The notes below the pieces were generated by a model. That model saw nothing but the letters and a program-made list of their open reading frames with translations, ran no database searches and was not told the DNA's origin. A stretch of 64,000 nucleotides of DNA from Gracilimonas mengyeensis. Lineage in GTDB: Bacteria; Bacteroidota; Rhodothermia; Balneolales; Balneolaceae. The DNA lies in NCBI RefSeq assembly GCF_900182705.1, contig NZ_FXTP01000001.1:186001-250000 (forward strand), given 5' to 3'. Shown piece by piece: positions 832-19,190 of this stretch. Numbering within the stretch: the stretch's first letter is position 1; each line of letters opens with the position of its first letter. Position numbers and translations under genes: made by a program.

Positions 832-1980
832 TTGAGTTTGAAAGGCTTAATTTTGATTGTAGATGACACTCCAGCCAATCTACATCTGTTATCCAATGTA
901 TTAAAGAAAGAAGGCTATGAGTATTTAGAAGCCTCCGACGGGAAGACCGCTTTAAAGCTGGCTAAAAGCCATCATCCTGATTTAATACTATTAGATATTA
1001 TGATGCCTGGAATGGATGGGTTGGAAGTAACAAAAGCGCTTAAGAATGATGCTGAACTTGAAGATATTCCGGTTATTTTTCTTAGTTCGCTCAATGATAT
1101 AAAGAATAAGATAGATGCCTTCAAAGTGGGTGGGGTTGATTATATAACCAAACCTTTCCAAAAAGCAGAAACCCTTGCCCGCATTAAAACTCATTTACAT
1201 ATCCGATCGCTGCAGCAGCAATTGGGAGAGCGCATACGAATTCTGAAAGAGCGGGAAGATGAGCTTAGTAAACTAAATCGTAAAAAAGACGATTTAGTAC
1301 GTATGGTAAGCCACGATATAAAGAATCCACTAACAGGAATAGTTGGTCTGGCAAGGTTTTTAAAACATAAACAGGAATTGTCTCGCGATGACCAAGAAGA
1401 GATGTTTACTGTTATAGAGGAAAGTGGAAATAACCTACTTAGAATGGTTCAGGAAATGCTGGATCTGGAAGACAGGGAAATGGAAGGAAAGCCACTTGAT
1501 TGTGTCAAGACTATGCTTGACCCCCTAATTAAACGTGTTATAGCCATTAACAGAGCAAAAGCTGTAACCAAAGAAATCGAATTTGGCTATTCTGTAGAGC
1601 CCAGAGAACTTGAAGCATGTATCGACGCTGCCAAAATTGAAATTCTGGTAAATAACCTGGTGGCAAATGCTTTAAAATTTACGCCAAGTGGCGGTAAAGT
1701 ATTTATTGAAGTGACCATCAATTCTTCCAATACCTTTTTGATAAAAGTGAAAGACACGGGTATCGGCCTTCCGGAAGATTTGAAAGACAATGTTTTTTCA
1801 GGACAATCCCATATTTCAAGAAAGGGTACGGGGGGCGAAACAGGAACCGGACTTGGACTCAATATTGTGAAGTTGTATGTTGAGAAACATCAAGGCAAGG
1901 TATGGACCGAGTCGGAACCCGCCGAGGGCACTACTTTTTTTATTGAATTACCATTAAAGAGTAACATTAAAAACAACTAA
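832..1980 (+). CDS. Hybrid response regulator / histidine kinase (REC-HisKA-HATPase)
   Basis: A cytosolic signalling protein with an N-terminal receiver domain (about 4-122; acidic pair Asp11-Asp12, phospho-acceptor Asp55 in LLDIMMPG, Lys107 before Pro). A coiled linker (125-152) leads to a HisKA dimerisation domain with phospho-His161 in VSHDIKNP. The HATPase domain has the N box NNLVANALKF and the G boxes DTGIGLP and GTGLGLNIV. There is no membrane segment, so it reads an internal or relayed signal. The start is TTG 832, with a second TTG at 838. One base separates it from the next gene, another receiver protein, and it heads the Pel-like gene run, so I infer control of polysaccharide output. 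The domain calls are firm; the signal is unknown. Confidence 0.9.
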   Translation: MSLKGLILIVDDTPANLHLLSNVLKKEGYEYLEASDGKTALKLAKSHHPDLILLDIMMPGMDGLEVTKALKNDAELEDIPVIFLSSLNDIKNKIDAFKVGGVDYITKPFQKAETLARIKTHLHIRSLQQQLGERIRILKEREDELSKLNRKKDDLVRMVSHDIKNPLTGIVGLARFLKHKQELSRDDQEEMFTVIEESGNNLLRMVQEMLDLEDREMEGKPLDCVKTMLDPLIKRVIAINRAKAVTKEIEFGYSVEPRELEACIDAAKIEILVNNLVANALKFTPSGGKVFIEVTINSSNTFLIKVKDTGIGLPEDLKDNVFSGQSHISRKGTGGETGTGLGLNIVKLYVEKHQGKVWTESEPAEGTTFFIELPLKSNIKNN

Positions 1981-1981
1981 A

Positions 1982-2914
1982 ATGGCATATAAGGTTTTAG
2001 TAATTGATGATGATGAGCCTATTCATTACATGCTTAAGAACCTGCTTAAGGATGAATTTGCTGTATTGAACGCACATAATGTGCAAGAGGCTATTGATAT
2101 ATTATCAGAGACAACGGTTAACCTGATTTTATCGGATATTCATATGCCCGGTATTTCAGGTTTAGAATTCCTGGAATCCATCCGCCTTGATGAAAAGAAG
2201 AAATCGATCCCGGTATTGATTATGACCAATTTGCCGACGGTTGAAAAAGAAAAGAAGGCACTGGATTTAGGTGCAGCCGATTTTATCAAGAAAGAGCTGC
2301 TGAATAACAACCGGGAAAAGGTGCTCGATATCATCCGGATGAAGATTGTTACCGATGTACAGGTTTCAGGTTTAGATGAAGATCAAACCAAGAAAAAAGA
2401 TCAGCTGGTAATGAAGCTGATGGAAACGGCCATTGGCGGATCTTTTAGTGATACGGTAGAAGTACTCAGCAAGGGACTGGCTGAAATTGTAAATATGAAT
2501 TATGCCGGTTTTTGGATGATAAAAGATGATGAGGCCGAGTTGCTCTATTCGAAAAATGATGAGGAAGAACGGCCGGCCAATGAAGATAATATCATGGCAG
2601 AAAGCAGTTTTGATTATCTCAAAGATAACAGGGAAGAGTACCTGAGTAACCACGTATTTAATGAAGATGTAGGATTTTTCGTTGATTTCTCAAAAAAGCA
2701 GGGACTGTCTGCAGAAATTGGCGTTCCTCTCTTCGCAGTTAATGAGCGCGAATTATTAATGAACAATATGAAAGTGCCAGCTAAAGCCGATATGTTTGGA
2801 CTTATCATACTCAAGCGCTCTGTGCTTTTTTCATCTACGGAATTTGAGCTGGTTTCCCGCTTAATCAAGCAATCAGGCTCTATTTTATACCGCTTGTATA
2901 AGAAGAACAAATAA
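1982..2914 (+). CDS. Response regulator with receiver and GAF-like domains
   Basis: The receiver domain spans about 3-120, with the acidic cluster DDDE at 9-12 and phospho-acceptor Asp52 in LILSDIHMPG. A helix (about 130-150) leads to a domain of about 150 residues that reads as GAF-like (LVMKLMETAIGGSF, then NMNYAGFWMIKDD and a terminal ...ILYRLYKKNK helix). There is no DNA-binding output domain, so it probably acts by protein contact. It starts one base after the kinase stop and is followed 11 bases later by a glycosyltransferase. It is the likely phosphorylation partner of the kinase. The GAF call is weaker than the receiver call. Confidence 0.82.
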   Translation: MAYKVLVIDDDEPIHYMLKNLLKDEFAVLNAHNVQEAIDILSETTVNLILSDIHMPGISGLEFLESIRLDEKKKSIPVLIMTNLPTVEKEKKALDLGAADFIKKELLNNNREKVLDIIRMKIVTDVQVSGLDEDQTKKKDQLVMKLMETAIGGSFSDTVEVLSKGLAEIVNMNYAGFWMIKDDEAELLYSKNDEEERPANEDNIMAESSFDYLKDNREEYLSNHVFNEDVGFFVDFSKKQGLSAEIGVPLFAVNERELLMNNMKVPAKADMFGLIILKRSVLFSSTEFELVSRLIKQSGSILYRLYKKNK

Positions 2915-2925
2915 TCCTATCGGCA

Positions 2926-4095
2926 ATGCGTGTTTTATTAATTATTGAAGGAACCTATCCCTGGTACAGGGGAGGGGTTAGTGAATGGGTGTATCAATAT
3001 CTTGCCCATTTGCCTGATGTGAAGTTCACCATCCTTCAATTAGCTACCGACGAATTTCAGCATCTGGATCCCGAAGATGCTTTATATCCTATTACCCGGA
3101 ATATTGATACTTTTCGGCGCATCTTTCCTCCTGATGCCAACAGTCAATTAGACCAATACCTGGAGCGCTGGTACCAGCAAAATAAGTATCAGTTTAAAAG
3201 TTTAATTCCCGCCCAGGATGTTGTGCATGTAACAAACACCGGGTTTGCAGGCTGGCTGGGCAGCCGATTAGCAGAAAATTACAAGTTGCCATTACTACTC
3301 ACCGAGCACGCCATTTACTGGAAGGAGGTGGAGCTTGGAGCCGTAGCGCTGGAATGTGGATACGAAATACCGCAAACGGAAGAAGCTAAGATGCGAATTT
3401 CCAGGTCTTTCAAGAAAATGGCAGAATACACGTATCAGTCAGCGGATCAAATTATTTCCGTATCTCAGTCAAATATCCCTTATCAAAAAGGATTAGGAGC
3501 CGATAACATACAATATATTCCCAATGGCATTCCTGAAGACTGGCTGATGCATTCTAAAAATAGAGGAGAACAGCCTGTTATCGGATGGGTGGGACGCTGT
3601 GCCGAAATGAAAAACCCACTGGCTTTTTTTGAGCTGGTTGAGGCTTTCAAAAAACAAAATTGTACACCTGTATTCAGGATGTTACTGAGCGATGCCAATG
3701 AAAAGGAGTTAGAGGAAGAAGTACGGCAGAAAGCTCAGGAGTTTCCAGAGGTGGATATGGTGTGGAATCAGCCTGCTAAAGACTATTTTAAGGATTTCGA
3801 TTTCCTGGTGATTTCAAGCCATAATGAATCGCAGCCCTTGGTAATGTTGGAAGCCATTGCTCACAGAGCCTTGCCGGTAGGATTTCAGGTAGGGGATCTA
3901 AATAGCGAATATGGAATGATACTTGACTCGAAGGTTGGTTTTGGCCCGATGGCAGAACAGATCGTACAACTATGGAATGATGAAAAGAAATTTGAGGATA
4001 CGGTAGCCCAAAGTTTTAAAAAGATCCGGGAAGAGCACACCTGGCCTCAGATTTTTGAATCGTATAAGAGCGTGATACAACAGATTATCGCATAG
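2926..4095 (+). CDS. PelF-like short GT4 glycosyltransferase
   Basis: A GT-B fold glycosyltransferase of the GT4 type, 389 residues. The N-terminus (IIEGTYPWYRGGVSEWV) and the internal LLTEHAIYWKE match the PelF-type signatures EG(T/S)YP..GGVS and L(L/V)T(E/D)HG.Y, but the PelF insertion domain is missing, making it about 140 residues shorter than the next gene. An EX7E motif is kept (Glu301 and Glu309 in ESQPLVMLE). The usual PVVATDVGG loop after it is replaced by LPVGFQVGDL, so donor binding may differ. It probably works in the cytosol with PelF. The acceptor and donor cannot be read from sequence. It lies 11 bases before pelF. Confidence 0.8.
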   Translation: MRVLLIIEGTYPWYRGGVSEWVYQYLAHLPDVKFTILQLATDEFQHLDPEDALYPITRNIDTFRRIFPPDANSQLDQYLERWYQQNKYQFKSLIPAQDVVHVTNTGFAGWLGSRLAENYKLPLLLTEHAIYWKEVELGAVALECGYEIPQTEEAKMRISRSFKKMAEYTYQSADQIISVSQSNIPYQKGLGADNIQYIPNGIPEDWLMHSKNRGEQPVIGWVGRCAEMKNPLAFFELVEAFKKQNCTPVFRMLLSDANEKELEEEVRQKAQEFPEVDMVWNQPAKDYFKDFDFLVISSHNESQPLVMLEAIAHRALPVGFQVGDLNSEYGMILDSKVGFGPMAEQIVQLWNDEKKFEDTVAQSFKKIREEHTWPQIFESYKSVIQQIIA

Positions 4096-4106: not shown

Positions 4107-5696
4107 TTGAAAAATGATAAACCACGGATATTATTAGAAACAGAAGGGTCTTATCCCTATAGCGGGGGAGGTGTGTCTACCTGGGCGCATATACTTTGCA
4201 CCGAACTGGTTGAAAAAGTAGACTTTGACTTACTTGCCGTTACGGGAAATCCTTATGTGGAAAGCAGGTATCGCTTACCCCAAAATGTCCATAAGATCAT
4301 CCACATTCCGTTATGGGGAGTTGATGAACCCTCGGATTACTACGACAACGATCGCCCCTTTTCTTATCAGATAAAAAAGAAAGCCCGCACCACCAAAGAG
4401 GTTACCAAAAATCTGTTTAAGCCCATTTTCGAGGATTTTTTGGCTTGCCTGTTTGATCCCTATTCCAATGTGCAACACATCAGTGAGGTGTTGTATGGCA
4501 TGTGGAAATACTTTGACTACTTTGACTACAAACAGACAATGCGACAGCCATTGCTTTGGTTTGATTTCAAATACAGCCTACAAGACTATTTTGATGTGCT
4601 GGGTATGGACGATCACGAGCAGCCAAGGGTGTTTGATATGACCTTTGGGATGCGTTGGTTCTACCACTTTCTGATGCCCATTGCAGCTCCCATCCCGCCC
4701 AAAGTGGATGTAACGCATGCCACTATTGCTGGTTTCCCGGCTCTGGCTTCTATTGCCTCGAAATTCGAATATGGCATTCCCAGTATCGTGACAGATCACG
4801 GCGTTTACATGCGTGAAAGACTGATTAATGTGGGGCAGGCAGATATGCCATTTTTCTCAAAAAAGCTGCTGGTGGATTTGTCTACCATAGTAAGCCGGGC
4901 AGTATACCATACGGCCGACCAGATATCTCCGGTAACTACGGCTAATACTGATTGGGAGAAAAGATTTGAAGCAAAGGAGGAACATATTTTACCGATCTAT
5001 AACGGGGTAAATACCGATGTTTTCGTACCCACTCCAAAACCCTCCAAGACTAAAGACACACCCACAGTTGTAGCTGTCGCTCATTTATTTCCGTTAAAGG
5101 ATATCGAAACCATGATTGAAACGGCCGCTTTGGTCCGCGAAGAAATCCCTGAAGTACAGTTTACGGTTTATGGGAGTCTTGAGGTGGATAAGGACTATGT
5201 AAAAAAGTGCCGTAAGCTGATTAAAGAACGTAAGCTGGAGGATACTTTTCACTTAGGCGGGTATCACGATCAACCCAGCATGATTTTTAATGAAGGGGAT
5301 ATCTCCATTCTTACCTCTATTTCAGAAGGATTTCCTTACACAGTCATCGAGTCGATGAGTTGTGCACGTCCCGTTGTGGCTACCGACGTTGGAGGCATCA
5401 GAGATGCATTGGAAGGCTGTGGCATTCTCTGTAAGCCGAGAGATCCACGGGATATTGCCAATGGGGTTCTTAAATTATTAAAAGATGATGACCTGCGACT
5501 TGAGTATGGCCGCAAAGCAAGGGAACGGGTTTTATTGACATTTAAGACAGAGAAGTCGGTTAATGCCTATTATGATTCCTATAAGGAGCTGGCCAGAAAG
5601 GAACGAAAACCGCTCAAAAATCAGGTAGAAACTGCTTCTGTAAAATATCTGCTTGAATATCTATACGATAAGGAGGATGCGTATCATGAAAAATGA
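4107..5696 (+). CDS. pelF: PelF-type GT4 glycosyltransferase (Pel polymerase subunit)
   Basis: A protein of 529 residues, close to the usual PelF length. It starts at TTG 4107 with GGCGGA just upstream. The N-terminus ETEGSYPYSGGGVSTWAH and IVTDHGVYMRER are PelF hallmarks. An insertion (about 80-190) precedes the second half of the GT-B fold, which has VAVAHLFPLKDIETMI, the EX7E pair Glu407/Glu415 in EGFPYTVIE, and ARPVVATDVGGIRDAL. PelF is the cytosolic enzyme that polymerises Pel (an N-acetylgalactosamine-rich polymer in Pseudomonas) from UDP-sugar. The last codons overlap pelG by 11 bases. The family call is strong; the sugar in this organism is unknown. Confidence 0.87.
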   Translation: MKNDKPRILLETEGSYPYSGGGVSTWAHILCTELVEKVDFDLLAVTGNPYVESRYRLPQNVHKIIHIPLWGVDEPSDYYDNDRPFSYQIKKKARTTKEVTKNLFKPIFEDFLACLFDPYSNVQHISEVLYGMWKYFDYFDYKQTMRQPLLWFDFKYSLQDYFDVLGMDDHEQPRVFDMTFGMRWFYHFLMPIAAPIPPKVDVTHATIAGFPALASIASKFEYGIPSIVTDHGVYMRERLINVGQADMPFFSKKLLVDLSTIVSRAVYHTADQISPVTTANTDWEKRFEAKEEHILPIYNGVNTDVFVPTPKPSKTKDTPTVVAVAHLFPLKDIETMIETAALVREEIPEVQFTVYGSLEVDKDYVKKCRKLIKERKLEDTFHLGGYHDQPSMIFNEGDISILTSISEGFPYTVIESMSCARPVVATDVGGIRDALEGCGILCKPRDPRDIANGVLKLLKDDDLRLEYGRKARERVLLTFKTEKSVNAYYDSYKELARKERKPLKNQVETASVKYLLEYLYDKEDAYHEK

Positions 5697-7314
5697 TGTA
5701 CAAGGTGCTCCTCACATAGATAAAGAAACGGAAGTTGCCGAACTTACTGACCGGGTTCATGAGCTGATCGATAATCCCATAAGTACCTGGGCAGTAGCTG
5801 CAACTATTGAATCGCTTGGTATAAGAAATATAGATGCCCAAACCGATTATGGATATACTTCGGTATTTGATCTTGGCGATGAGGTATATCGTCGGATCAA
5901 GGAAAGGGAAAAGGCGAAATTTAAAGAAGATGAGGAGGGTGAAGGGTTTAAGGTTGGAAGTTTTAGCAATTCCTTAAAACTGTTTTTTAAGCATTATACC
6001 GCCGGCATGATTTTTTCGATGCCGATGCTCTCCCAGATTGTTGCCATCATTATTTTTGAATACGCTTTATGGGCCTGGTTTAATTTCAATGAAGCGCAAG
6101 CTACCGTAGTAGCGATGGGGACCATATTGTCGTTCATTCTTACCGGTGGGTTTATCCAAACATTGGGGCGGCTGGTATCCAGATATAAAGGCGAAGAAAA
6201 CTTTTACCTGGCTTCTAAAGCAACCTGGGCGGTAATGAAGGTGGCAATTCCCTTCATTTTAACAGCCGCTCTTTTCTTGTTGGTGCTCAATGTTATTTTT
6301 CCCTTTTATCCGCAACAACTGGCCTGGCTTGCGGTGCTGTATATGGTGCTGATCTCACTCTTATTGCTGGCGGCAGCCGTACTTTATGCCACTGAACAGC
6401 GGTTTATGATTCTCTTAGGTATTTTACTGGGTACCGTATTGGTTATTTTTGGGATGGTTTTTGCCGATATTGGCATTTACTTTTCTCAATGGTTGGGTAT
6501 AATTTCAGCTACCGTATTTATGGCCGGATATGCATATATATATTATCGCTTTAAAATTCGGACTTTACGTCAAGAGTTATTTAAACAATCCCTGCCCGAA
6601 GCTGAAGTAATCTATTACAATACCTACCGGTATTTCATCTACGGGTTTTGTTACTTCACTTTTTTGTTCATGGATCGAATGATGGCATGGTCTGCAGGCC
6701 CGCCGCCTCCGGAGTATATCATCTGGTTTAATACCCCTTATGAACTGGGGATGGATTGGGCTTTGATAACGCTGGTTATTACCATTGCCATGTTGGAGTA
6801 CAGCATTCACTCGTTTTCAAAACACTTGATTCCAGCTCAGAAAAAAGCAATGATTTCAAAGATCAAACTTTTTAACCGCTTTTTTCGAAGATTTTATGTG
6901 AAACAAATTATACTGCTACTGATTGTTGGCGGTTTGTCTATTATCGGAACATATTACGGGGTACTAAGCCTGCGGGCATTTGAAGATCAGGTCCCAGAAA
7001 TTGCCGATTTTTTTGCAAATCCCATGACTTTTAGGGTTTTTTGGATGGCAAGTATTGGATACCTGTTCCTTATTTACGGGCTGCTGAATAGTCTATTCTT
7101 TTTCACCCTAAACCGTCCTGAATTGGTTATGTATGCAATGATGGGGTCATTATTTGTTAATTTTATAGTCGGCTTTTTATGCAGCCGTATTTTTGGTCTC
7201 GAATATGCCGTTATTGGTTTAATTGCCGGGTCAGTGGTTTTTGCCATTTCTACAGGAATTTTGGCAAAAAGATTTTTTAAACATCTCGATTACTTTTATT
7301 ACTCTGCATTCTGA
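5686..7314 (+). CDS. pelG: PelG-type polysaccharide transporter with N-terminal extension
   Basis: The start is ATG 5686, 9 bases after AAGGAGG (5670-5676); an upstream in-frame codon at 5653 lacks such a site. The first 100 or so residues are soluble and charged (with TWAVAATIESLGIRN and VFDLGDEVYRRI). About twelve membrane segments follow, in the MOP/MATE arrangement seen in PelG, including GGFIQTLGRLVSRYKGEE, comparable to the family's TRY.AD segment. PelG moves the polymer across the inner membrane with PelF. At about 542 residues it is longer than the usual 450 or so because of the N-terminal domain. The position directly after pelF supports the call. Confidence 0.82.
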   Translation: MKNDVQGAPHIDKETEVAELTDRVHELIDNPISTWAVAATIESLGIRNIDAQTDYGYTSVFDLGDEVYRRIKEREKAKFKEDEEGEGFKVGSFSNSLKLFFKHYTAGMIFSMPMLSQIVAIIIFEYALWAWFNFNEAQATVVAMGTILSFILTGGFIQTLGRLVSRYKGEENFYLASKATWAVMKVAIPFILTAALFLLVLNVIFPFYPQQLAWLAVLYMVLISLLLLAAAVLYATEQRFMILLGILLGTVLVIFGMVFADIGIYFSQWLGIISATVFMAGYAYIYYRFKIRTLRQELFKQSLPEAEVIYYNTYRYFIYGFCYFTFLFMDRMMAWSAGPPPPEYIIWFNTPYELGMDWALITLVITIAMLEYSIHSFSKHLIPAQKKAMISKIKLFNRFFRRFYVKQIILLLIVGGLSIIGTYYGVLSLRAFEDQVPEIADFFANPMTFRVFWMASIGYLFLIYGLLNSLFFFTLNRPELVMYAMMGSLFVNFIVGFLCSRIFGLEYAVIGLIAGSVVFAISTGILAKRFFKHLDYFYYSAF

Positions 7315-7323
7315 GGTATATCT

Positions 7324-8946
7324 ATGATTAAAGACGTCAAAACTTACATACATACCGTAGGAAATCGACTAAGCAAGGCATTTTCCATAGAGGAGTTTGG
7401 GCTGGAAGAGCAACTTGATTTCTGGGAACTTTCTGCTGAACACGTATCACGTAAAGAAACCCCTTCTTTCACGGACATCGTCTCCTGGATGGATATGCTC
7501 TACCGGGCGCCCGTGCATTTTGTGTATCAGCTTGAGGATGAGAAGTTAGTATTGAGTCGCCGCCATGTAATCACAGAAAACCTCCTAAATACACAGGCAG
7601 GCAGGCGAACAGCCTCCGGCTCTCAAAGTGTTCAGGAGAAGGAGTTGTTACAAAACTTTGAACACCAACTCCAGAATCTGGAAAAAAAGATGAGCATGGA
7701 CGAGGTGTTTCGGGAGCACGGTATTACCGCTCATTCCATAGGGCAATGTGAACACATCCCTCTGTTCGACAACGATGGTGACTTGTGGGGGATCTATTGT
7801 GCAGGTCCATATATCAAAAGTCCGGAACAGATCACCCCAAAATTATCAATTGTTGGCAGGTTGCTTTCCCGCTGGCTAATTAGCTTGGATGAAGAAGAGG
7901 ATAAGCCGCAAAAAGACTATGAAAGTCGCATTGAGGAAGTTACCGCAAACCTGGGCAGCGGAAAGCTTAATACGGAAGCCCTCATGCAACTCAATCTTAA
8001 GTATTTGCTGAATTCCGTAAAGGCGGATTCGGGCTGTGTGTTTGAATTTATGGGTGGAGGACATAAAGTACTGGCATCCAGTGGTTTTAGTGAGGATGAG
8101 CTTGCAGAGTTTACTCAAGTTGAGAACGTACTTGTACAGGAAGCTACCGACAAAGTGAAAGTTACTGAAGCAGGAAGGAAGTGGTTTGAAGCACGAGGAG
8201 AAAATCCCGATGTGTTGTATTTTAAAGGAGAGCATCATTCCGGCTTTATACTACTCTTTAACAGTGCGGACACTCCACGGTTTAAAGTCAGTGATATTCT
8301 GGATGATATCAGAAACTCTTTCGCCTCCATTTTGGATTATCGATATCAAAATGAAAAGTTCTCTGAGAAACTAACTCATGTGTATTATACCATGTTGCGT
8401 GCTATTGAGAGAAGCCGCTCTAAAACAATACATCACACCCCGCGCATGATTGCTTTTGTAGAACGCTTTGGACTTTTATTTGGGCTGGAAGATGAGGAAA
8501 TGGCTCGCATCAAACGAACCGCAAAACTGCACGATATCGGATATGTTGGAGCTTCCAGCATTGAGTCAGGTAAATCTATAGGCGGCGAGCTTACCCATCC
8601 GTTGATTGGTGCTAACATGGTAGAGCAGTTAGCTGTTCACCCTGATATCACAGAAGGAATAAAAACCCATCATGAATGGGTAAATGGAAACGGAACGCCC
8701 GGTGGTTTGAAAGCTGAAGAAATACCCTGGTCTGGTAAAATCATAGGTGTGTTCGAATATGTAGTAGACTTTGTAGAAACCCACAAAGATGACGATTCCA
8801 AAAGCGGTGATGAATGGATAGAAGCTCTCTCTAAAGGCATTATGGAGCGTGCCGACGTAGAATTTGATATGGTGCTTATCCCAACGGTCATCCAACTCAT
8901 ACAGGCTCTTGGTTGGGAGGGATGTGTAAATCTCGGTGTAGATTAA
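7324..8946 (+). CDS. GAF / HD-GYP-like protein, possible c-di-GMP phosphodiesterase or sensor
   Basis: A soluble protein of 540 residues. The first 350 or so look like one or two diverged GAF domains (SIGQCEHIPLFDNDGDLWGIY and the SGCVFEFMGGG...LLFNS region). The C-terminal part is an HD domain of HD-GYP type: His403-Asp404 in LHDIGYVG, THPLIGANMVEQL, His449-His450 in HHEWVNGNGTPGGL, and IPWSGKIIGVFEYVVDF. The metal ligands seem kept, but HDIGK is HDIGY and the GYP signature is GTP. It could hydrolyse c-di-GMP, act on another nucleotide, or only bind. It sits where Pel operons usually carry the c-di-GMP receptor PelD, which also has a GAF domain. Confidence 0.78.
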   Translation: MIKDVKTYIHTVGNRLSKAFSIEEFGLEEQLDFWELSAEHVSRKETPSFTDIVSWMDMLYRAPVHFVYQLEDEKLVLSRRHVITENLLNTQAGRRTASGSQSVQEKELLQNFEHQLQNLEKKMSMDEVFREHGITAHSIGQCEHIPLFDNDGDLWGIYCAGPYIKSPEQITPKLSIVGRLLSRWLISLDEEEDKPQKDYESRIEEVTANLGSGKLNTEALMQLNLKYLLNSVKADSGCVFEFMGGGHKVLASSGFSEDELAEFTQVENVLVQEATDKVKVTEAGRKWFEARGENPDVLYFKGEHHSGFILLFNSADTPRFKVSDILDDIRNSFASILDYRYQNEKFSEKLTHVYYTMLRAIERSRSKTIHHTPRMIAFVERFGLLFGLEDEEMARIKRTAKLHDIGYVGASSIESGKSIGGELTHPLIGANMVEQLAVHPDITEGIKTHHEWVNGNGTPGGLKAEEIPWSGKIIGVFEYVVDFVETHKDDDSKSGDEWIEALSKGIMERADVEFDMVLIPTVIQLIQALGWEGCVNLGVD

Positions 8947-9815
8947 TGAGATTACACATAATAATAGCAAGCATAATGGCCATATCTTTGATGCAGTGTT
9001 CTACTTCTGAAAAAGCAGGGTTCCAGCCGGAGTTACATACTCCCTATGCGGTATGCTATGCACAAGTTTCGCCTTCACAAGTTCATGCATATTCTCTGGT
9101 TATCTTGGAACCAGATTTTTACAGTGAAGAAGAAATTCAGGAATTGAAATCGGGTGATACTCAAATTATTGCTTATTTGACACTCGGAGAGGTGGATGAA
9201 AACCGATGGTATTATTCCCTGCTTCAAGAGCAGGGCTTTTTGGGTAAAAACCCAAACTGGAATAGTGCATTTATTAATCTTGAAAATACCCAAAGCAGAA
9301 ATGTACTTCTGCAGCAGGTGTTGCCTAAAATTATGGCAAAGGGGGTAGATGGCCTCTTCCTTGATACCATTGATGCGGTGGCCCCGGTAACAGAACGAGC
9401 TCATCTACAGCCTTACATGGCTCAATTGATCAAAGACATTCATGAAGAATATCCCCAAAAAATAATCATCCAGAATAGCGGCATTTTTATGCTGGAAGAA
9501 ACCCGCTATGCCATTGATGCTTTTATGACGGAATCGTTGGCTTCTGATTATGATTTTTCATCCGGAGAGTATCTGGTGCGAAGCGACGAAGATTATCACA
9601 ACCGGCTGGAATACCTGCGGTTTTATAGCGATAAATACGAAGTGCCATTCTTTATCCTGGATTTCGCAGATACCCCCGCTAAGCGTGACAGAATTTACCA
9701 ACGCCTTGATTCCCTTAACAGGCCGTTCTTTATCAGCAATATTGGTTTAAGCGATTTACCGGAAGATCCTGGCGGATACGCCAATTCTTTGAAGGAGGAG
9801 GACCATGGACTATAG
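8946..9815 (+). CDS. GH114/PelA-hydrolase-like lipoprotein
   Basis: The start is ATG 8946, overlapping the previous stop as TAATG. From there the protein has a lipoprotein signal with lipobox SLMQC (Cys18), which an upstream TTG at 8913 would spoil. The mature part reads as a TIM-barrel of the endo-alpha-1,4-polygalactosaminidase family (GH114/GH166, like the hydrolase domain of PelA): IIAYLTLGEVDENRWY, KGVDGLFLDTIDAV and QNSGIFMLEE. In Pel systems this activity trims the galactosamine polymer in the periplasm. Here it is a separate lipoprotein, not part of a PelA with a deacetylase. A strong GGAGGAGG at its 3' end serves the next gene. Confidence 0.82.
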   Translation: MRLHIIIASIMAISLMQCSTSEKAGFQPELHTPYAVCYAQVSPSQVHAYSLVILEPDFYSEEEIQELKSGDTQIIAYLTLGEVDENRWYYSLLQEQGFLGKNPNWNSAFINLENTQSRNVLLQQVLPKIMAKGVDGLFLDTIDAVAPVTERAHLQPYMAQLIKDIHEEYPQKIIIQNSGIFMLEETRYAIDAFMTESLASDYDFSSGEYLVRSDEDYHNRLEYLRFYSDKYEVPFFILDFADTPAKRDRIYQRLDSLNRPFFISNIGLSDLPEDPGGYANSLKEEDHGL

Positions 9816-11865
9816 CCTCCAGGCCATATTTTCAGCATTGCGAATTTTGATCACCTTCGTGTTTTTATTCGGATATGTAACCCCGTTTTTCTTTCGCCAT
9901 GCGGCCCAGCAAAATGGAATTGATCGAATCGTTTATTCTTGGGCTGGTTTAGGAGGTTTGCTAACTATAGGAGTATTTATACTGGTAAGTCTTCATATCT
10001 ATGATTTTATCAGCATTCTTTTTTTCCTTCTGATGCTGCCTTTACTGGTACGTTTCTTTAAGCGTAAATGGGAGGGGAATAGTGTGGTGGATATCTTTAC
10101 CATGGAAGAGAATCGTTTGGTGGCAAAGCAGGTAAAGCTCATCGAGAAAGTAAAATACCTGACATGGGGTGATGCCAAGAAGAAATTAAAAAAGAAGATC
10201 AAACCGAATTCTCAACAAGATGCCTTTACCTTAGCGGCGGTATTAATAGCCGTGAGCGGAGCTGTACTACGCATCATTCCTTCCATACAGAATTCATCTC
10301 CCTTTAGTAGGTTGTGGTACTTTGAGCTGGACGCGGTAAAACAGCTTAGCCTACAGCAATACTTTGACGGTTATCCGGCTCCCAGGGGGATGCATTCCAT
10401 TATTCATTTTTTTAGTACCATCACCCAGGTAAGCCCGGAATTGATACTACACATCCTTGGAGGACTGATTAGTTTCTTCCTCACAATCATCATTTTTTGG
10501 GTGATTCGTGACATAACCCGTAATAAGCACCTTTCCGCAGCTGTTTTCGGTGCAATGCTCTATGCTATTTTTCCCACCATGTTCTTACCCGTTTCCCTGG
10601 AGTTGGAGTCGGAATTGAGCTCTCTGTCTTTAGCTTTATGTTTTGCGATACCCACGGCGATATTTTATTTACGAAATATTCGCTCCGGGGATAAAACCCC
10701 CTGGTTTTATATAGCAATGGGTATCATTGCTACCGGACTTACCGACATTTTTGTGCTCTTGATGGTTTTGATGCCCTTCCTCATTTTTGGGATTTTCTCG
10801 CTGCCTAAGCGTCGTTTTACCCAACAGGCTGGTAAATTGTTTGTATATCTGACTTCGTTGTACCTATTGGTATTGTCTCCGTACGTGATATACTGTCTCA
10901 TCAATGGCATAAAAGTAGATGCTTTTTTTCAGGATCAGCTCTTTAACACCCAAGTGTTTAGTTTTGCCCCGAACCTGTTGATCCCTATTGAGGAGCTAAG
11001 TCTAAGGTATTTGGTCGCGGGGGTGTTCCTGCTGGTGGCTTATTTGATCCGGCACTTCATACAGGATAAAAAAAGGTTGGGCGAAGAAATTATCTTTCTA
11101 ATTGTCTTTGTGATGGTTTCCTTCGTTTATACGCCGTTCTTCGATTTTCAATATGTTTGGATTGATCCCGATCAATTGAACAGTTTCTATGGATTGTTAA
11201 TAGCGATAGTTGCCGGCATAAGCTTGCATTCCTTATTAATGCTTATTGAGTGGATTTCTGATGCCTTTCATAAAGTGAAACGCTATGCGGGTTCGGTTTT
11301 AACGGCTGGCTTTGCCATATGGTTTTTTGTGTTGCAGGACGGGGTAGAAGTGAGCCGGATGCTCCCCAAAACCCAACCCAATGGATTTTTTGATGCCTAC
11401 TATTCCATTATAAACGAACGGGTTCCCTACACCTACGCAACGGTTGGCCCGGACCTTGACAATGGACTGGCCCGTAACCGCCATTATTTTATGAATTATG
11501 ATTTCTTCCTCGACAACTATGGTGCAATCGATTCTCTTTATCAGCAATACCTTACCGTGCCTGATAACCAGCGGAATCCTGAGGAGGAAATCCCCCCTGC
11601 AAGTATCTTTCTTTTTGTTGAAAAACCACCTTATGGCTCCATTCAACAGGGAATTTTATATGATGCACAGGGCGTTATGAGAGATATGGAACAATGGTTG
11701 TCTTCCTACAGAGAGCTGGAAGGACGAAAAGTAGAAGTGTATCATGAAACAGATAATGCTATTGTGTATGAAATCATAAACAGGGAAGGAGAATCTACGA
11801 TTACCGGGGTACTTAGAAATATATATCCGGAAGGGGAGGGACGTGCTGAACAGCTGCTTAAATAA
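9805..11865 (+). CDS. Large polytopic membrane protein, unknown, GT-C-like
   Basis: ATG 9805 follows AAGGAGGAGG and overlaps the GH114 gene by 11 bases. There are two or three membrane helices in the first 80 residues, a basic cytosolic stretch (about 90-140), and then about ten more helices. Between helices lies the loop LWYFELDAVKQLSLQQYF with acidic residues, and a soluble C-terminal domain of about 150 residues follows the last helix (NPEEEIPPASIFLFVEKPPYG). The layout recalls GT-C glycosyltransferases or Wzy-type polymerases. I do not recognise the family. Its place between two Pel-like genes suggests work on lipid-linked or nascent polymer at the inner membrane, taking the slot of PelD/PelE. 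Confidence 0.7.
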   Translation: MDYSLQAIFSALRILITFVFLFGYVTPFFFRHAAQQNGIDRIVYSWAGLGGLLTIGVFILVSLHIYDFISILFFLLMLPLLVRFFKRKWEGNSVVDIFTMEENRLVAKQVKLIEKVKYLTWGDAKKKLKKKIKPNSQQDAFTLAAVLIAVSGAVLRIIPSIQNSSPFSRLWYFELDAVKQLSLQQYFDGYPAPRGMHSIIHFFSTITQVSPELILHILGGLISFFLTIIIFWVIRDITRNKHLSAAVFGAMLYAIFPTMFLPVSLELESELSSLSLALCFAIPTAIFYLRNIRSGDKTPWFYIAMGIIATGLTDIFVLLMVLMPFLIFGIFSLPKRRFTQQAGKLFVYLTSLYLLVLSPYVIYCLINGIKVDAFFQDQLFNTQVFSFAPNLLIPIEELSLRYLVAGVFLLVAYLIRHFIQDKKRLGEEIIFLIVFVMVSFVYTPFFDFQYVWIDPDQLNSFYGLLIAIVAGISLHSLLMLIEWISDAFHKVKRYAGSVLTAGFAIWFFVLQDGVEVSRMLPKTQPNGFFDAYYSIINERVPYTYATVGPDLDNGLARNRHYFMNYDFFLDNYGAIDSLYQQYLTVPDNQRNPEEEIPPASIFLFVEKPPYGSIQQGILYDAQGVMRDMEQWLSSYRELEGRKVEVYHETDNAIVYEIINREGESTITGVLRNIYPEGEGRAEQLLK

Positions 11866-11866: not shown

Positions 11867-14800
11867 ATGCAAAAACACTTGTTCTTCCTGGTGCTGTCTT
11901 TGGCCGGATTCTCACTTTTTTGGGGATGTAACAGCGATAAAATACGATTTTTCCCCGGAACGGTAGAGGGTGGGCAGAAGCCGTATGTGATGGTGGTAAA
12001 ATATCTGTCGGACGACTACAGTTCCAGCATGTCAGCAAATGTGACCAAGTCATTAGACTACACCAAGATACCTTATCAAACCCTGGACCTGGAGATTATC
12101 TCCGGTGAATTTCGTATCCCTGAAACGGTACGTACTATTGTGATTACCAGCTTCGAAGCAACCCAGTTACCCCAGGAAGCTATCAAAAAGCTTATAGAAT
12201 TTGTAGCAAAGGGCAACAACATTGTTTTTACAGGACCTTTTGCGGATGAAAAATTTTCTTACCTGCAGGGTATCAGGCCAGACATCGATTTCTCCTTTGA
12301 TTCAACCAACACCGGGTTTGAATTGCTCGAACAGGCATTTCCCGGAATGGCAGGAAAGAGATATAATCCCAAGGGTCTTGAAGTGCATAATGGACTTGAA
12401 GCCAATCAGTTTATTCCATCAGTTACTCACTTGGCAGCAACAGCCACCGATCCGGAACAACCTTTCATCGTTTCTAATAAGTTGGGGATGGGGGAAGTAA
12501 TCACGATTAACAGCTATGCAATTAATAATCGTCTATATAGGGGTATTGTCTTTTCATCCATACTGCGCGGGCTGAGCGGTATTCCCTACCAGGTGGCAAA
12601 TGTAAGCACCATTTTTCTGGATGATTTCCCCGCCCCATTGTATAACGAAATGTTACCACCTATTGACGAGGAGTACGGCATCTCTCACGCAGAATTTGTA
12701 AGCAAGGTTTGGTGGCCGGATATGAGGGCTTTGGCCGATACTTTTGATATTACATATTCCGCTATGACAGCCTTTAATTACAATGCCAATGTAGTGCCCC
12801 CTTTCGATTTCCAGGAATGGCGCCAGGGCTCTATTGTGTATAATCAGGATATTGTAAGAGGCAGTATATTTTTGGCGAATAACATCCGGGATAGCAGGCA
12901 CGAGCTGGCTTTTCACGGGTATAACCACTTTTCTTTATGGAGAGAAGATTGGGATAATATCAACTTCATGATTTCGGCTCTACATGCCGCCCGCAAACGC
13001 TGGCAGGTAGATGATATGGGACCATTACCCACCAACTATGTTCCGCCTACAAACCACATTGACTCCCTGGGGATACAGGCTATAATCCGGGGCATGCCCA
13101 GTATTGAATACATGAGTTCACTTTACCTGGGCTATTTAGAAGATGGAGGAGCGCGAGAATTCGATCCCGAGCCCTATGCCCCCACTGAGTTATTTAATTA
13201 TCCCAGAATAACCAGTGGGTTTACGATGACTGACAATTCCATTTTGCAGCAAATGGGGCTGCAGATTATGACAGGCATTTGGACACATTTTGTACATCCC
13301 GATGATGTTTTCCAGGTGGTTCAGCGTGATGCCGATGATTTTGCAAGCCGTAACCCAAAAGGTTTGGGTTGGAAATCAGATCCCGAATATGGCTATGGAC
13401 TATATCATTTGCTAAGGGAACGAATAATCCTCACACAAGATCTGTTCCCAAAAAATAAATTTGTGTCGGCCACACAGGGCGGAAGGTTGACTCAGGATTG
13501 GAGACGCAGCCTGACAGGATATGAGGAGAAAGGGAACTTGGTTTTGGTTAACTCGGCCTTCCGTTCCGACTATCTGCCTCTTGCAGCAGATAGTACGAGG
13601 CATTGGTACATGTATGCCACCAGGGGGCAAGTGAGGGAAATTGAAAAATCCCTAAACTTGCAAGAACTTCCTTTTGATAAAACGCCTTTTTGGGATGGTT
13701 TTTTGTATCAATTTACCTCGCAGAAGCCTTTCTTTTTTATGCCAAGTTATCAACCGGACAAAGTACACAATCCAACAGTTTTAGATGAGATTGCTGCACA
13801 AGAATGGGATGAATACGTTGAACTTTTTATTGAACCGCCGGCCCAGAATATTCCAGATGTAATTTGGCAGGACAACCGAATGAATGAAGCCTTGGCAGCT
13901 TTGGAAAAGAACCCCGGTAATCGCTGGCGCCAGGAAGAAGTGATAAATTTGAGCATTGAATTCGACAGAGTCTATCATGCTATCAACATTTTAGAGAATA
14001 GATTACTTTCACAAGAGGAATGGAGTACGGAAGATTCCGAGCGACTATTGACGTATTACGGCTGGGAAGGGATGCTATTGGAAGCTGAACAGTTCTTGGA
14101 AAGCATGTGGGAAAAACACCACAATCAAGCTGTACTGGATTTGAAAAACAAAGCGGTTGCTCAATTAGGATTATATGGTACTGATTTCGAACAGCGTTGG
14201 CTGGAAAGGAGACTGGAACTTTATCCGGATGACCCGGAGATACTGCTGGACTTCACAAAGTCCATAGAGTCCCAAGAAAACTGGCCATTGATGAAGAAAA
14301 ACCTTCAGCACTTACTTAGTCAGAATTCTCAATCAGATACCTTGTATGCTTTTACACTTCAACGCTCTTTATATTACGCCAGTCCGGATAGTACCCTTGC
14401 GTTGGTGGATCGCTTTCCAAGGCCGGCTTATCCACAGCTAATGCCCTTTGCCAGGGAGTTGGCTCAGCTTAATGCCTATGTAGCCAAGGACTATGAACAG
14501 GCTTTATTTTGGGCCAATAACCTTCCTGATTTCGATGAGCGACAAAAGCTCTATTGGTTATCTTTATTAGAGCTGGATGAATTGTATGTAGCCAATGCAA
14601 AGCGGGCTGTGGCAGAACAACCCGGCGACGACAGCTTGCGATCCTATGTAGGAGCTAATTTGTTTTACGAAGGATTTCAACAGGAGGCTTACGAGGTACT
14701 TTATCCTCTTTTTCAGTGGAACCGCGAAAAAGGTTTAACGGCCGATACGCTGCTGCGACAGGAAATCGGCTATATGGATTATGGACAAAAGAAAGCATTC

Positions 14801-15757
14801 TATAAACGATATCCCTTGTTTTTTGATACCGATCAAAGACAAGCGTTAGCCAATCAGCACCGCATTACGGAAGGAGTTAAGGTGACAGCCTCAGGCGAAT
14901 ACAGAGATGATAACTTTGATAATACCTTTGCCCGGAGTTCTATAGGTATAGAATTTGGTCACCGCCAGCATACAACCCATACCATAAAGACAGAGAATCT
15001 GCTTTTCACCGATGATGAACGGACCCAATCCCTGAATCAGGAATACTACGGTATTGGATATCAACTCACCCACCGTGAGAATCAGCAACGCCTGATAATG
15101 CAAGCCGGCGGATCCCTGCTTTTTGGACAGCAGGATATGATAACGGAAGCTTTATTTTCTTTGGGTTACTCCGGGACCGAATCCTATACATCGGTACAAC
15201 TCTCGGGGGGAGCAGAACTAACATCTACTTCCGTACAAAATGATTACTACCAGGGGCAGCTACAGCTGTATCGGCAAGATGAATGGTTAAGTAACAAATT
15301 CACTACCTCAGTGTCGTCTATGGGTAAATATTATACTAACGAGGTGTTCGAATATGGGGGACAGGCACGGTTATACGGGAACCTCAGGGATCAGAAATGG
15401 CGCTTCAGAACACTGGGTGAGCTTGGCTATTATGATGCTACGGAAACCTTTGAAAGTGGCATTCCTTATTACACTCCTGATCAATATTTTTCACAAGGCC
15501 TTGGGGTTGACGTACAGTTTAGAAATCCAGACAACTACGAATATCAAACCAGAATTGATGCAGAGGTTATGGCTCGTCACGAAAGGGAAGACAGCTTCTA
15601 TTTTAGTGGCAGTGTACAAATGAATCTAAAAATTGCCCGGTTTTGGGACCTGACCACGGGAGCTGAAATTTCTACCAGCGACACCTATCGTTCGAACCGA
15701 ATTTTTATTACCATCTCGCACAGTTTGCCTACAAAATTTTGGCAGAAAAACCGGTAA
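11867..15757 (+). CDS. DUF2194 deacetylase-like / TPR / outer-membrane beta-barrel fusion (PelA-PelB-like)
   Basis: I prefer ATG 11867, one base after the previous stop, because it gives a clean signal peptide with lipobox LFWGC; GTG 11843 in frame is possible. The N-terminal half (about 30-600) matches the DUF2194 type. It has carbohydrate-esterase motifs: FLDDF with Asp252-Asp253, and His350/His354 in FHGYNHFSL, as in NodB-fold deacetylases. Residues of about 630-980 are helical TPR-like repeats (VIWQDNRMNEALAALEKNPG, ELYPDDPEILLDFTKSIES). The last 300 or so form alternating strands ending at the C-terminus, as in the PelB barrel. In canonical Pel, PelB repeats recruit PelA to the exit pore; here both are one chain. 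It would deacetylate polymer at the outer-membrane exit. Confidence 0.82.
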   Translation: MQKHLFFLVLSLAGFSLFWGCNSDKIRFFPGTVEGGQKPYVMVVKYLSDDYSSSMSANVTKSLDYTKIPYQTLDLEIISGEFRIPETVRTIVITSFEATQLPQEAIKKLIEFVAKGNNIVFTGPFADEKFSYLQGIRPDIDFSFDSTNTGFELLEQAFPGMAGKRYNPKGLEVHNGLEANQFIPSVTHLAATATDPEQPFIVSNKLGMGEVITINSYAINNRLYRGIVFSSILRGLSGIPYQVANVSTIFLDDFPAPLYNEMLPPIDEEYGISHAEFVSKVWWPDMRALADTFDITYSAMTAFNYNANVVPPFDFQEWRQGSIVYNQDIVRGSIFLANNIRDSRHELAFHGYNHFSLWREDWDNINFMISALHAARKRWQVDDMGPLPTNYVPPTNHIDSLGIQAIIRGMPSIEYMSSLYLGYLEDGGAREFDPEPYAPTELFNYPRITSGFTMTDNSILQQMGLQIMTGIWTHFVHPDDVFQVVQRDADDFASRNPKGLGWKSDPEYGYGLYHLLRERIILTQDLFPKNKFVSATQGGRLTQDWRRSLTGYEEKGNLVLVNSAFRSDYLPLAADSTRHWYMYATRGQVREIEKSLNLQELPFDKTPFWDGFLYQFTSQKPFFFMPSYQPDKVHNPTVLDEIAAQEWDEYVELFIEPPAQNIPDVIWQDNRMNEALAALEKNPGNRWRQEEVINLSIEFDRVYHAINILENRLLSQEEWSTEDSERLLTYYGWEGMLLEAEQFLESMWEKHHNQAVLDLKNKAVAQLGLYGTDFEQRWLERRLELYPDDPEILLDFTKSIESQENWPLMKKNLQHLLSQNSQSDTLYAFTLQRSLYYASPDSTLALVDRFPRPAYPQLMPFARELAQLNAYVAKDYEQALFWANNLPDFDERQKLYWLSLLELDELYVANAKRAVAEQPGDDSLRSYVGANLFYEGFQQEAYEVLYPLFQWNREKGLTADTLLRQEIGYMDYGQKKAFYKRYPLFFDTDQRQALANQHRITEGVKVTASGEYRDDNFDNTFARSSIGIEFGHRQHTTHTIKTENLLFTDDERTQSLNQEYYGIGYQLTHRENQQRLIMQAGGSLLFGQQDMITEALFSLGYSGTESYTSVQLSGGAELTSTSVQNDYYQGQLQLYRQDEWLSNKFTTSVSSMGKYYTNEVFEYGGQARLYGNLRDQKWRFRTLGELGYYDATETFESGIPYYTPDQYFSQGLGVDVQFRNPDNYEYQTRIDAEVMARHEREDSFYFSGSVQMNLKIARFWDLTTGAEISTSDTYRSNRIFITISHSLPTKFWQKNR

Positions 15758-15787: not shown

Positions 15788-16102
15788 ATGAGTTTTATCA
15801 AAAAACATTTGGAATGGATGGTATTCAGCGGAGGCTTGCTGCTACTCGCGCTTATGGAGCCAACAACTACCGGAACATCCTGGTGCCTGTTCGAATTAGT
15901 TGGTTTCGATTTTTGCCCCGGCGAAGGCCTCGGGCATTCCATCGCTTACACATTTCGGGGTGATATCACTTCGGCATTGGATGCCCATTTCGCTGGTCCG
16001 GCAGCAGTTATCATCCTTATTTCAAGAATAGTACACATTTGGTATCAGCTTCTAACTAAATCAAAAGAACCTTATACGGAGGACCTATCATGGCAACATT
16101 AA
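15788..16102 (+). CDS. Small membrane protein, DUF2752-like
   Basis: A protein of 104 residues with two membrane helices (about 10-30 and 70-90). Between them is FDFCPGEGLGHSIAYTFRGD, which resembles the DUF2752 pattern CPxCGxTRAxxxLLxGD with changes at the second Cys and the Arg. It starts at ATG 15788, 30 bases after the barrel gene, and overlaps the next gene by 13 bases, so it is translated with it. The function is unknown. DUF2752 proteins often travel with TM2 proteins, as here. Confidence 0.65.
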   Translation: MSFIKKHLEWMVFSGGLLLLALMEPTTTGTSWCLFELVGFDFCPGEGLGHSIAYTFRGDITSALDAHFAGPAAVIILISRIVHIWYQLLTKSKEPYTEDLSWQH

Positions 16103-16452
16103 TCGATCATCTACCCGAAGTAAGCGGCGATGAAGCTCGCTACCTTGAACGGTTGCTGGAGAACTATAATGAGCAGCAGATCTCTCGATTCTCAAATATT
16201 TATCGGTCCCGCCGAAAAGACCCGCAGCATATTCTGATAGCTTGCCTCTTTGGTTTTTTGAGTATTGCAGGTATACATCGCATTCTTTTGAATCAGACAG
16301 CGATGGGATTGCTTTATCTATTTACCGGGGGCTTGTGCCTTATCGGTACCATCGTTGATTTGGTGAATTACAAAGAAATGACTTTTGATTACAACCGGGA
16401 TATTGCCCGTGATGTGAAAAGCTATGTGGATAAGCAAACGGATAATTCCTGA
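16090..16452 (+). CDS. TM2 domain membrane protein
   Basis: A protein of 120 residues. The start ATG 16090 follows GGAGGAC. The N-terminal 45 residues are charged and cytosolic. A TM2 pair follows: FLSIAGIHRILLNQ, a short turn, then TGGLCLIGTIVDLVNY, matching the family pattern of a Gly/His/Arg-bearing first helix and an acidic end of the second (usually GxHRFYLG and DL). It is the last gene of the operon, with a terminator 42 bases later. The role in the polysaccharide system is unknown. Confidence 0.75.
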   Translation: MATLIDHLPEVSGDEARYLERLLENYNEQQISRFSNIYRSRRKDPQHILIACLFGFLSIAGIHRILLNQTAMGLLYLFTGGLCLIGTIVDLVNYKEMTFDYNRDIARDVKSYVDKQTDNS

Positions 16453-16572: not shown

Positions 16573-17247
16573 TTACTTGGTTAGAGTCATTCTCTTTGCT
16601 TTCAAAAAGAAAGCCTGTTGACCTGTTTGCACTTTCACATTGTATAAATACACTCCGGATGGAAGGTCATTTAGAGAAACCCGAACCTGTGTTTTTGGTA
16701 CCTGGGCAAAACCTGAGATCTCTCTAATCAAGGCACCAGCAGCATTATAAATGTAAAGCTGGTACGAAGCTTTTTGAGGCGAAAGGAAAGTAACAGTGGT
16801 TTGAGGATTAAAAGGATTGGGATAGTTTTCAACCAGTTCGAATCCATCCGGGATTTTAGCGAGGCGTTCATTAGAAACGGGAACTTCGTCTGCCCCTTCA
16901 CTGATCCAGGTTCTGATTAATTGAATTTCTTCGTCGGATAAAGAGCCTCCCTGGGGCATTCGTGAGCCAAATTCAGGATTGGGTTCAATCTTATCTACCA
17001 AGGGACTATCATCGGGTGCGCCCGGGACCACAATATTTGATCCATATTGATTGCCTACGCTGTTCATAACCGCATCGTAACTTGAAAGGGTTACCCCGCT
17101 TGAAGAGCCATGACAAGTCACACAATTTGAATTAAAAATGGGCTGTATCTCTGTTTCATAATCCACTTGAGCCTTGAGTGGTGTATAGAGAAAGGAAATG
17201 AGGAGAAGGAGAGAAGAGGTAAGTAGTGCTTTCATAATTTTTCCCAT
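16573..17247 (-). CDS. Cytochrome-c-like protein with T9SS C-terminal sorting domain
   Basis: A signal peptide (about 1-26; an inner ATG at 17235 gives MKALLTSSLLLLISFLYT) is followed by a single haem-binding motif, Cys42-Val-Thr-Cys45-His46, in IFNSNCVTCHGSSSG. A possible distal Met lies in FGSRMPQGG, and an EEIQLIRTWI helix follows; this is the layout of planctomycete-type cytochrome c domains. Residues of about 140-224 (ENYPNPFNPQTTVTFLSP... GVYLYNV) are a type A T9SS sorting domain, so the protein is delivered to the cell surface. It is last in the minus-strand cluster and is a paralogue of the first gene there. Confidence 0.88.
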   Translation of the reverse strand: MGKIMKALLTSSLLLLISFLYTPLKAQVDYETEIQPIFNSNCVTCHGSSSGVTLSSYDAVMNSVGNQYGSNIVVPGAPDDSPLVDKIEPNPEFGSRMPQGGSLSDEEIQLIRTWISEGADEVPVSNERLAKIPDGFELVENYPNPFNPQTTVTFLSPQKASYQLYIYNAAGALIREISGFAQVPKTQVRVSLNDLPSGVYLYNVKVQTGQQAFFLKAKRMTLTK

Positions 17248-17250
17248 TGG

Positions 17251-18120: not shown

Positions 18121-18121
18121 C

Positions 18122-18679
18122 TTAGTCCTCCACAGGTTTTAACAGCGCTTCAATTTCAATGTCCTGCTGCTGATCTACTTTCACAAAAAGCAATTTTGGA
18201 GGCTCGATATCGTAGTCTTTAAGTAATAAAGTCCAGCCTGCTTTTACTAACAATCCGTTGTCAGTCATTTGCAGGGTCCCGGTGATTTTAGTTTCATTGG
18301 TTACACCATGAATTTTGAAATCACCCTCAACTGTAACAGTTTGGGGAGAGGTGTTCTCGGGATCAAAGTTGGACGTGAGTTTCCCAAAGAACTCGGCAAA
18401 GGGAAATTCTTCCGCCTCCAGAGTTTCCAGCATATCCCGGTCGCGTTTATCAATGCCGGTTTCAAGCGTATGGAGATCGAGGTAGAAATCAACAGTTTTA
18501 TCCTCCAGATCAATTCTGCCGGTCAAAAAATCAGAGCTTCCGCTGAAGGTATGGAGGGGGACTTCAGAGTGAAAAACGGCGGTACCGCTATCCGTCATAA
18601 ATGCTTGCCCCAGCGCCATACTATGGGATACAAGGATTAGCAGGGGAATCAAAAATATTGTGGTTCTTTTAGTTCTCAA
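18122..18679 (-). CDS. YceI family periplasmic protein
   Basis: A protein of 185 residues: signal peptide (to about 25), then a lipocalin-like YceI barrel. Family marks are the opening GTAVFHSEVPLHTFSG, the LDLHTLETGIDKRDRDML segment and FKIHGVTNETKITGTL. YceI proteins bind long isoprenoid chains (quinone-like molecules) in the periplasm. Between two cytochrome-like genes, a quinone or redox-related role is plausible. It overlaps the lipoprotein gene upstream by 11 bases, so translation is coupled. Confidence 0.9.
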   Translation of the reverse strand: MRTKRTTIFLIPLLILVSHSMALGQAFMTDSGTAVFHSEVPLHTFSGSSDFLTGRIDLEDKTVDFYLDLHTLETGIDKRDRDMLETLEAEEFPFAEFFGKLTSNFDPENTSPQTVTVEGDFKIHGVTNETKITGTLQMTDNGLLVKAGWTLLLKDYDIEPPKLLFVKVDQQQDIEIEALLKPVED

Positions 18680-19079: not shown

Positions 19080-19190
19080 AATTAGCTCCATTTAAATTTG
19101 AATATTAAGTAAGCTAAGTAATTAGTTGAATGTTAAACGAATAAAGTAGAATTGCAACAATAATTTTCAAATCTAACATTAAGGCCTCCG

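Follow-up and report, generated by a model that had tools for sequence, protein, structure and literature searches.

A single gene in the DNA studied here encodes a deacetylase, a helical repeat region and a predicted outer-membrane barrel in one chain, and this fusion, which places the modification enzyme and the exit pore in the same polypeptide, probably serves a Pel-like exopolysaccharide machine as its periplasmic and outer-membrane end. The gene lies in a stretch of 64,000 nucleotides (hereafter the window) from Gracilimonas mengyeensis (NCBI RefSeq assembly GCF_900182705.1, contig NZ_FXTP01000001.1, positions 186,001 to 250,000 of the forward strand). Directly established are the gene itself, its domains, the conservation of its active site, the predicted folds, the operon and the fact that the fusion recurs among the phylum genomes sampled. 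Coordinates of all features, counted from the first letter of the window, are collected in Table 1.

Domains of the fused protein

The order of domains in the chain is alpha/beta, metal-dependent deacetylase, small beta-rich domain, helical repeats and predicted barrel, and the three-part fusion of about 1300 residues that an earlier note on this DNA had proposed is borne out, with all three parts predicted in one open reading frame (ORF). An alternative GTG start at 11843 would give 1304 amino acids (aa) with the same stop (15757). For comparison, 80 loci with relatives have been retained out of 127 confirmed, and counts of loci given below cover these 80. One complete ORF of fusion length is present in 75 of them, and the contig end interrupts the gene in four (L068, L085, L105 and L109). 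The sole split fusion is found in L111 (10001-14048), as two ORFs of 813 and 452 aa lying 247 bases apart. The 75 complete relatives and the window form a full-length set of 76 sequences (1264-1372 aa, median 1311), in which the relatives' lengths assume translation from the first in-frame start and may deviate by a few residues. A simple lipobox pattern is matched by 62 of the 76 N-termini; by visual reading of the other 14, those of L039-L043 resemble AQ-ending substrates of signal peptidase I; the remaining nine, the window among them, have a Cys at a similar place.

The Pfam family DUF2194 matches residues 48-483 (E=7.7e-61), and with E values as high as 1 allowed, the sole PDB entry matched by sequence is PelADA of Bacillus cereus (9ZAU; E=1.2e-36, residues 32-483), for which a profile of the 76 rows gives E=1.6e-71. 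The PelADA residues D262, D263, H350, H354, P405, R458, H488 and D491 align with D252, D253, H350, H354, P394, R447, H477 and D480 of the window, and all eight are invariant in the 76 full-length sequences including the window. Roles described for the PelADA active site are a metal triad Asp-His-His, a base Asp, an Arg, an acid His and the Asp after the acid His, and this enzyme deacetylates oligomers of alpha-1,4-linked N-acetylgalactosamine (GalNAc) (PMC13254593). Asp252-Asp253 lie within LDDFP and His350 and His354 within HGYNH (ATG numbering), as the earlier note had placed them in naming NodB-like motifs. By homology and active-site residues, the domain is assigned to the CE26, or PelADA, type. 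For the CE21 deacetylase of P. aeruginosa PelA, no sequence similarity was detected, hhalign against two PelA sequences giving a signal at noise level.

The chain is longer than the prediction limit of 1200 residues, and two overlapping halves have been modelled by AlphaFold2 from 76-row alignments. The model of residues 26-665 has a predicted local distance difference test score (pLDDT) of 92.4 and a predicted template modelling score (pTM) of 0.92, and its fold matches include CE4-type entries (Z up to 18.3), human NDST1 (Z 16.6, root mean square deviation (rmsd) 7.1, 401 residues aligned), all three domains of Agd3 (Z 16.2, rmsd 6.5, 507 residues) and PelA 9CGY (Z 14.9, rmsd 8.5, 461 residues); 9ZAU was absent from these matches (structure library up to 2026-04-08). 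The fold is similar to that of Pseudomonas PelA, with which the earlier note had compared the protein, while by sequence the enzyme is a monoderm-type PelADA of CE26 and not CE21.

The second model, of residues 505-1296, has a mean pLDDT of 87.7 and a pTM of 0.55. The structures that the earlier note had set as a test, namely a NodB-like fold with a metal site, helical repeats and a barrel of 14-18 strands, are all predicted, with conserved metal residues in the first half and with 22 helices and 16 strands in the second. A short helix (residues 1120-1124) is located between barrel strands 7 and 8, the equivalent site to that occupied by the Plug-I helix in PelB (PMC12141448). The best matches of the barrel model are PgaA 4Y25 (Z 24.0, rmsd 3.5, 272 aligned), BcsC 6TZK (Z 24.0, rmsd 4.9, 318 aligned) and PelB 9H80 (Z 22.5, rmsd 3.9, 272 aligned), these three secretins being within about 1.5 Z of each other and the next fold being CymA (Z 16.1). 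Judged by its predicted fold only, this part of the chain is an exopolysaccharide secretin, a 16-strand barrel after a superhelix of tetratricopeptide repeat (TPR) type. Because it has the same fold as PelB, BcsC and PgaA without detected sequence similarity, the name PelB is given on the basis of fold and operon.

Table 1. Positions of the fused gene, its parts and the upstream genes in the window.
Feature	Position	Strand	Basis or remark
Two regulators: receiver-histidine kinase; receiver protein with weak GAF match only	832..2914	+	Pfam
Second, shorter PelF-like glycosyltransferase	2926..4095	+	Above PelF cut-off
PelF glycosyltransferase	4107..5696	+	NF038011 PelF, 139 bits (cut-off 100)
PelG-like exporter	5653..7314	+	Named by position and by relative L081
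Protein with C-terminal HD/HD-GYP-like domain	7324..8946	+	Motif HHE...GNGTPGGL
GH114/GH166-type hydrolase, PelA hydrolase homologue	8913..9815	+	PF03537, 47 bits (cut-off 27)
Membrane protein of 686 aa with about 12 hydrophobic segments and C-terminal soluble part	9805..11865	+	Sequence
Fused deacetylase - helical repeat - outer-membrane barrel protein	11867..15757	+	Single ORF, 1296 aa from ATG 11867
Signal peptide to Cys21	11867..11929	+	LFWGC, atypical lipobox
N-terminal alpha/beta domain, residues about 30-243	11954..12595	+	Counterpart of PelADA carbohydrate-binding domain CBM114 (PMC13254593)
CE26-type deacetylase domain, residues about 244-535	12596..13471	+	D252, D253, H350, H354, P394, R447, H477, D480
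Small beta-rich domain, residues about 536-626	13472..13744	+	Predicted models
Predicted TPR-like superhelix, 22 helices (about ten hairpins), residues 636-1002	13772..14872	+	AlphaFold2 model
Predicted 16-strand outer-membrane barrel, residues 1005-1286	14879..15724	+	AlphaFold2 model

Operon and recurrence of the fusion

The gene order PelF, PelG-like, hydrolase, membrane protein and fusion is found in 69 of the 80 loci, and in the remaining 11 the fusion starts less than 4 kb from the end of the available DNA. Gaps among these five core genes do not exceed 200 bases in 54 of the 69 loci, and the remaining 15 have an HD-domain gene in one gap. Of the 80 loci, 15 have a relative of the HD-domain protein placed after the PelG-like gene and before the hydrolase; Fodinibius roseus (L046) lacks it. 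Each of five reference PelF proteins is matched by the PelF profile built from the loci, with E from 1.7e-94 to 2.9e-54, and the hydrolase profile ranks canonical PelA first among reference proteins (E 1.2e-37 and 1.7e-32), with hydrolase residues such as D146, D149 and E202 (L036 numbering) kept in 73 of 73 sequences. The earlier note described this hydrolase as a separate lipoprotein next door; it does occupy its own ORF, while its lipoprotein status is uncertain in the window, where LMQC is not a standard lipobox. A clear lipobox is present in the relative from L049. At L022:9955-10818 (genome G089), the hydrolase is divided into two ORFs (104 and 168 aa) beside an intact fusion.

The 12-helix membrane protein adjoins the fusion in 78 of the 80 loci, the other two having less than 200 bases upstream. 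Six members (that of the window and five relatives) gave no Pfam match above the cut-off, and we found neither a PDB match (one row at E 5.8) nor, in comparison with canonical pel proteins, any counterpart; the protein may be a new subunit of the inner membrane that stands in for PelE. Profiles built from the loci gave no match to canonical PelD or PelE. The locus is a Pel-like variant without detected PelD, whose role in the control by cyclic di-GMP may be taken over by the HD/HD-GYP-like protein.

Record labels among the relatives include Balneola, Fodinibius, Roseivirga, Flavobacterium, Maribacter, Salegentibacter, Mesonia and Aquimarina; L085 (labelled as a metagenome-assembled genome (MAG) of Bifidobacterium breve) and L084 (a Sphingobacterium MAG) have not been counted as other phyla. 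Among 394 genomes of the phylum, 26 strong DUF2194 matches (E <1e-50) were found, every one in a frame of 1268-1349 aa, with 20 further rows in 19 genomes (E >1e-7, partial coverage) left aside. The repeat-barrel part alone is strong in 22 of 296 phylum genomes, always in frames of 1269-1349 aa, two short weak rows being left aside, and all 22 belong to the 26 genomes with strong DUF2194 matches. Of the four remaining ones, three (G304, G320 and G360) match the repeat-barrel clearly, at E 1.8e-163 or better, which makes this part clear in 25 of the 26 and weak in one (G243). No stand-alone strong match of either part was found in the sampled phylum genomes (394 for DUF2194, 296 for the repeat-barrel). 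Pairwise distances of the deacetylase and of the repeat-barrel are correlated (r 0.96 for 18 sequences and 0.95 for 58; permutation maxima 0.42 and 0.12), as expected of one inherited unit. Among plasmid records, the sole matches are three from Fusobacteriota, a Fusobacterium record without annotation being one of them, and Cetobacterium (L117), the one annotated comparison outside the phylum, has a stand-alone DUF2194 protein of 609 aa.

Proposed mechanism and alternative readings

Enzyme activity, polymer identity, direction of transport and coupling are what we infer in the following model. PelF would polymerise an N-acetylhexosamine polymer, probably of GalNAc, which the PelG-like and 12-helix proteins would carry across the inner membrane. 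In the next step, capture of the polymer and removal of acetyl groups would fall to the N-terminal binding domain and the CE26 domain of the fusion. The helical superhelix would guide the chain, by now cationic, towards the 16-strand barrel for release. In this way the fusion would set one deacetylase per pore and an order in which deacetylation precedes export, for which Pseudomonas relies on the docking of PelA to the TPRs of PelB. The order of the chain, with the enzyme first and the barrel last, fits such a sequence of deacetylation, guidance and export, and the repeat region, net negative in 64 of 76 sequences (mean -11), is suited to a cationic polymer. This charge pattern, together with a slightly negative barrel interior, lends weak support to a cationic cargo. 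The earlier note had taken the fusion as direct evidence for deacetylation at the pore, which is too strong; what the fusion provides is evidence, indirect but strong, for a single complex in which both parts act.

The fusion can be compared with several known systems. PelADA (CE26/CBM114, 9ZAU) shares the N-terminal alpha/beta, CE and beta-rich order, clear homology and the eight active-site residues, but it is 610 aa long, has a cytoplasmic-membrane anchor, is modelled with PelG and has no repeats or pore (PMC13254593). In Pseudomonas, PelA, PelB and PelC likewise bring a deacetylase, a TPR superhelix and a 16-strand barrel to one polymer, with a hydrolase in the operon (for the fusion, the fold is a predicted one); in contrast to the fusion, the chains are separate and the CE21 enzyme is joined to the hydrolase, and there are a PelC ring, not noticed between the core genes here, and PelD, not found here. 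The contrast that the earlier note drew with this layout was correct, the deacetylase being fused to the pore here and the hydrolase being a separate ORF. For Pseudomonas there is already biochemical evidence that PelA works with PelB: PelA docks on TPRs 9-14 of PelB, and the interaction raises deacetylation (PMC12022489); in the proposed model, this contact would be covalent. BcsC and PgaA also combine a TPR superhelix with a 16-strand barrel behind it (fold Z 24) but have no enzyme domain, carry cellulose or poly-N-acetylglucosamine, and have no detected sequence similarity. BcsZC of Zymomonas is also a periplasmic polymer-processing enzyme fused to an outer-membrane polysaccharide pore, with a hydrolase instead of a deacetylase and in a cellulose system (PMC7112194). 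In the pel-like cluster of Cetobacterium the DUF2194 protein adjoins a GH114-type hydrolase, PelF and PelG, the deacetylase differing from the fusion in standing alone.

Several observations weigh against a Pel-like machine of this kind. With the Pfam PelG model (cut-off 29 bits), the window copy gave no match, L081 reached 37.6 bits and L053 15 bits, and L104 and L049 gave none, while the PelG-like profile misses canonical PelG (three proteins). PelD_GGDEF was found in none of three fusion genomes versus two of two canonical pel records, and no PelC gene was noticed between the core genes in the 69 ordered loci, where no dedicated search with a PelC model was made. Inward-facing residues of the barrel have only a slight acidic excess (negative in 46 of 76 sequences, with a mean net charge of -1.2), unlike the anionic wall reported for PelB (PMC12141448). 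Residues 656-668, a linker directly after the first helix past the enzyme, have pLDDT <50, and with this linker and the pTM of 0.55 the placement of the enzyme relative to repeats and barrel is not predicted. In G243 (L167), a frame of 1344 aa contains a clear deacetylase (E 7e-119) and a repeat-barrel match that is only weak (E 3.7e-10); with a strongly diverged C-terminal part, this protein is a possible second version of the architecture. In profile comparison with single-sequence targets, the repeats and barrel scored against PelB, BcsC and PgaA at noise level, like shuffled and reversed controls, with no sequence similarity to these proteins detected. Against the PDB, the repeat-barrel profile gave weak matches only, headed by a ribonucleotide reductase entry (E 0.0012) and followed mostly by TPR-type and designed proteins from E of about 0.005, with a BcsC fragment at chance level (E 0.9). 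PelB proteins are themselves mutually diverged, that of Pseudoalteromonas retrieving only itself among plasmids at 1e-5 with an Azonexus pel record present.

The same machine may handle a polymer other than Pel, for example a different N-acetylated hexosamine or a mixed polymer from two PelF-like enzymes, a tentative alternative that we regard as rather unlikely. It would account for the two glycosyltransferases above the PelF cut-off in the window, for the membrane protein without canonical counterpart, and for a PelG-like protein and a barrel whose divergence puts them out of reach of sequence comparison; however, the second PelF occurs in none of the loci L053-L115, and CE26 deacetylases and GH166-type hydrolases are both tied to alpha-1,4-GalNAc polymers (PMC13254593, PMC12022489). 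It is more doubtful that the fusion is chiefly a tether or assembly device, fixing only stoichiometry or outer-membrane location, with a deacetylase that works anywhere in the periplasm. The predicted flexible linker between enzyme and superhelix would agree with such a device, as would the lipobox of most relatives, which suggests that the N-terminus is also membrane-anchored, but deacetylation is increased by the PelA-PelB interaction in Pseudomonas (PMC12022489) and no strong stand-alone match of either half was found in the phylum samples. A chance ORF, or two genes joined by sequencing error or by local frameshift (this last being the objection that the earlier note itself raised), is next to impossible, since the single ORFs of similar length in 75 of 80 relatives and the fusion-length frames of all 26 strong DUF2194 matches already refute it, with no support on its side besides L111.

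A wider form of the preferred reading, a Pel-like machine with enzyme and pore in one chain, has in our estimate even chances. Bacteroidota and Balneolota would carry a minimal Pel-type machine of five genes (PelF, PelG-like, hydrolase, the new 12-helix protein and the fusion), in which a deacetylase from the monoderm PelADA lineage was fused once and irreversibly to the secretin, PelC, PelD and a separate PelA were dispensed with, and deacetylation became obligatory for passage through the outer membrane. In the open-access literature searched, none of the matches listed describes a fusion of DUF2194 or PelA to a pore, or the recurrent matrix system indicated in the two groups. Hydrolase-pore BcsZC of Zymomonas is the nearest precedent in the relevant passages of PMC7112194, PMC7112168, PMC12022489, PMC12141448 and PMC13254593. 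The coupling of deacetylation to export, an open question for synthase-dependent exopolysaccharides, becomes testable with a single chain of enzyme, guide and pore, and structural studies could use this one polypeptide in place of the several proteins required in Pseudomonas.

Neighbouring genes

The tandem pair of PelF-family genes is not confined to the window, the shorter copy being present in 16 of the 80 loci, all within L036-L052. After the fusion, two small membrane-type ORFs (104 and 120 aa) are located at 15788-16452, the first having relatives in 12 of the 80 loci, all of them again in L036-L052. Genes on the opposite strand follow at 16573-19091, with a CxxCH motif in 16573-17247 and a CX4CH stretch in 18669-19091. 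Among them, the gene at 18122-18679 is one that we take to be YceI-like, and relatives of the gene at 17251-18120 are found next to 12 of the 80 loci.

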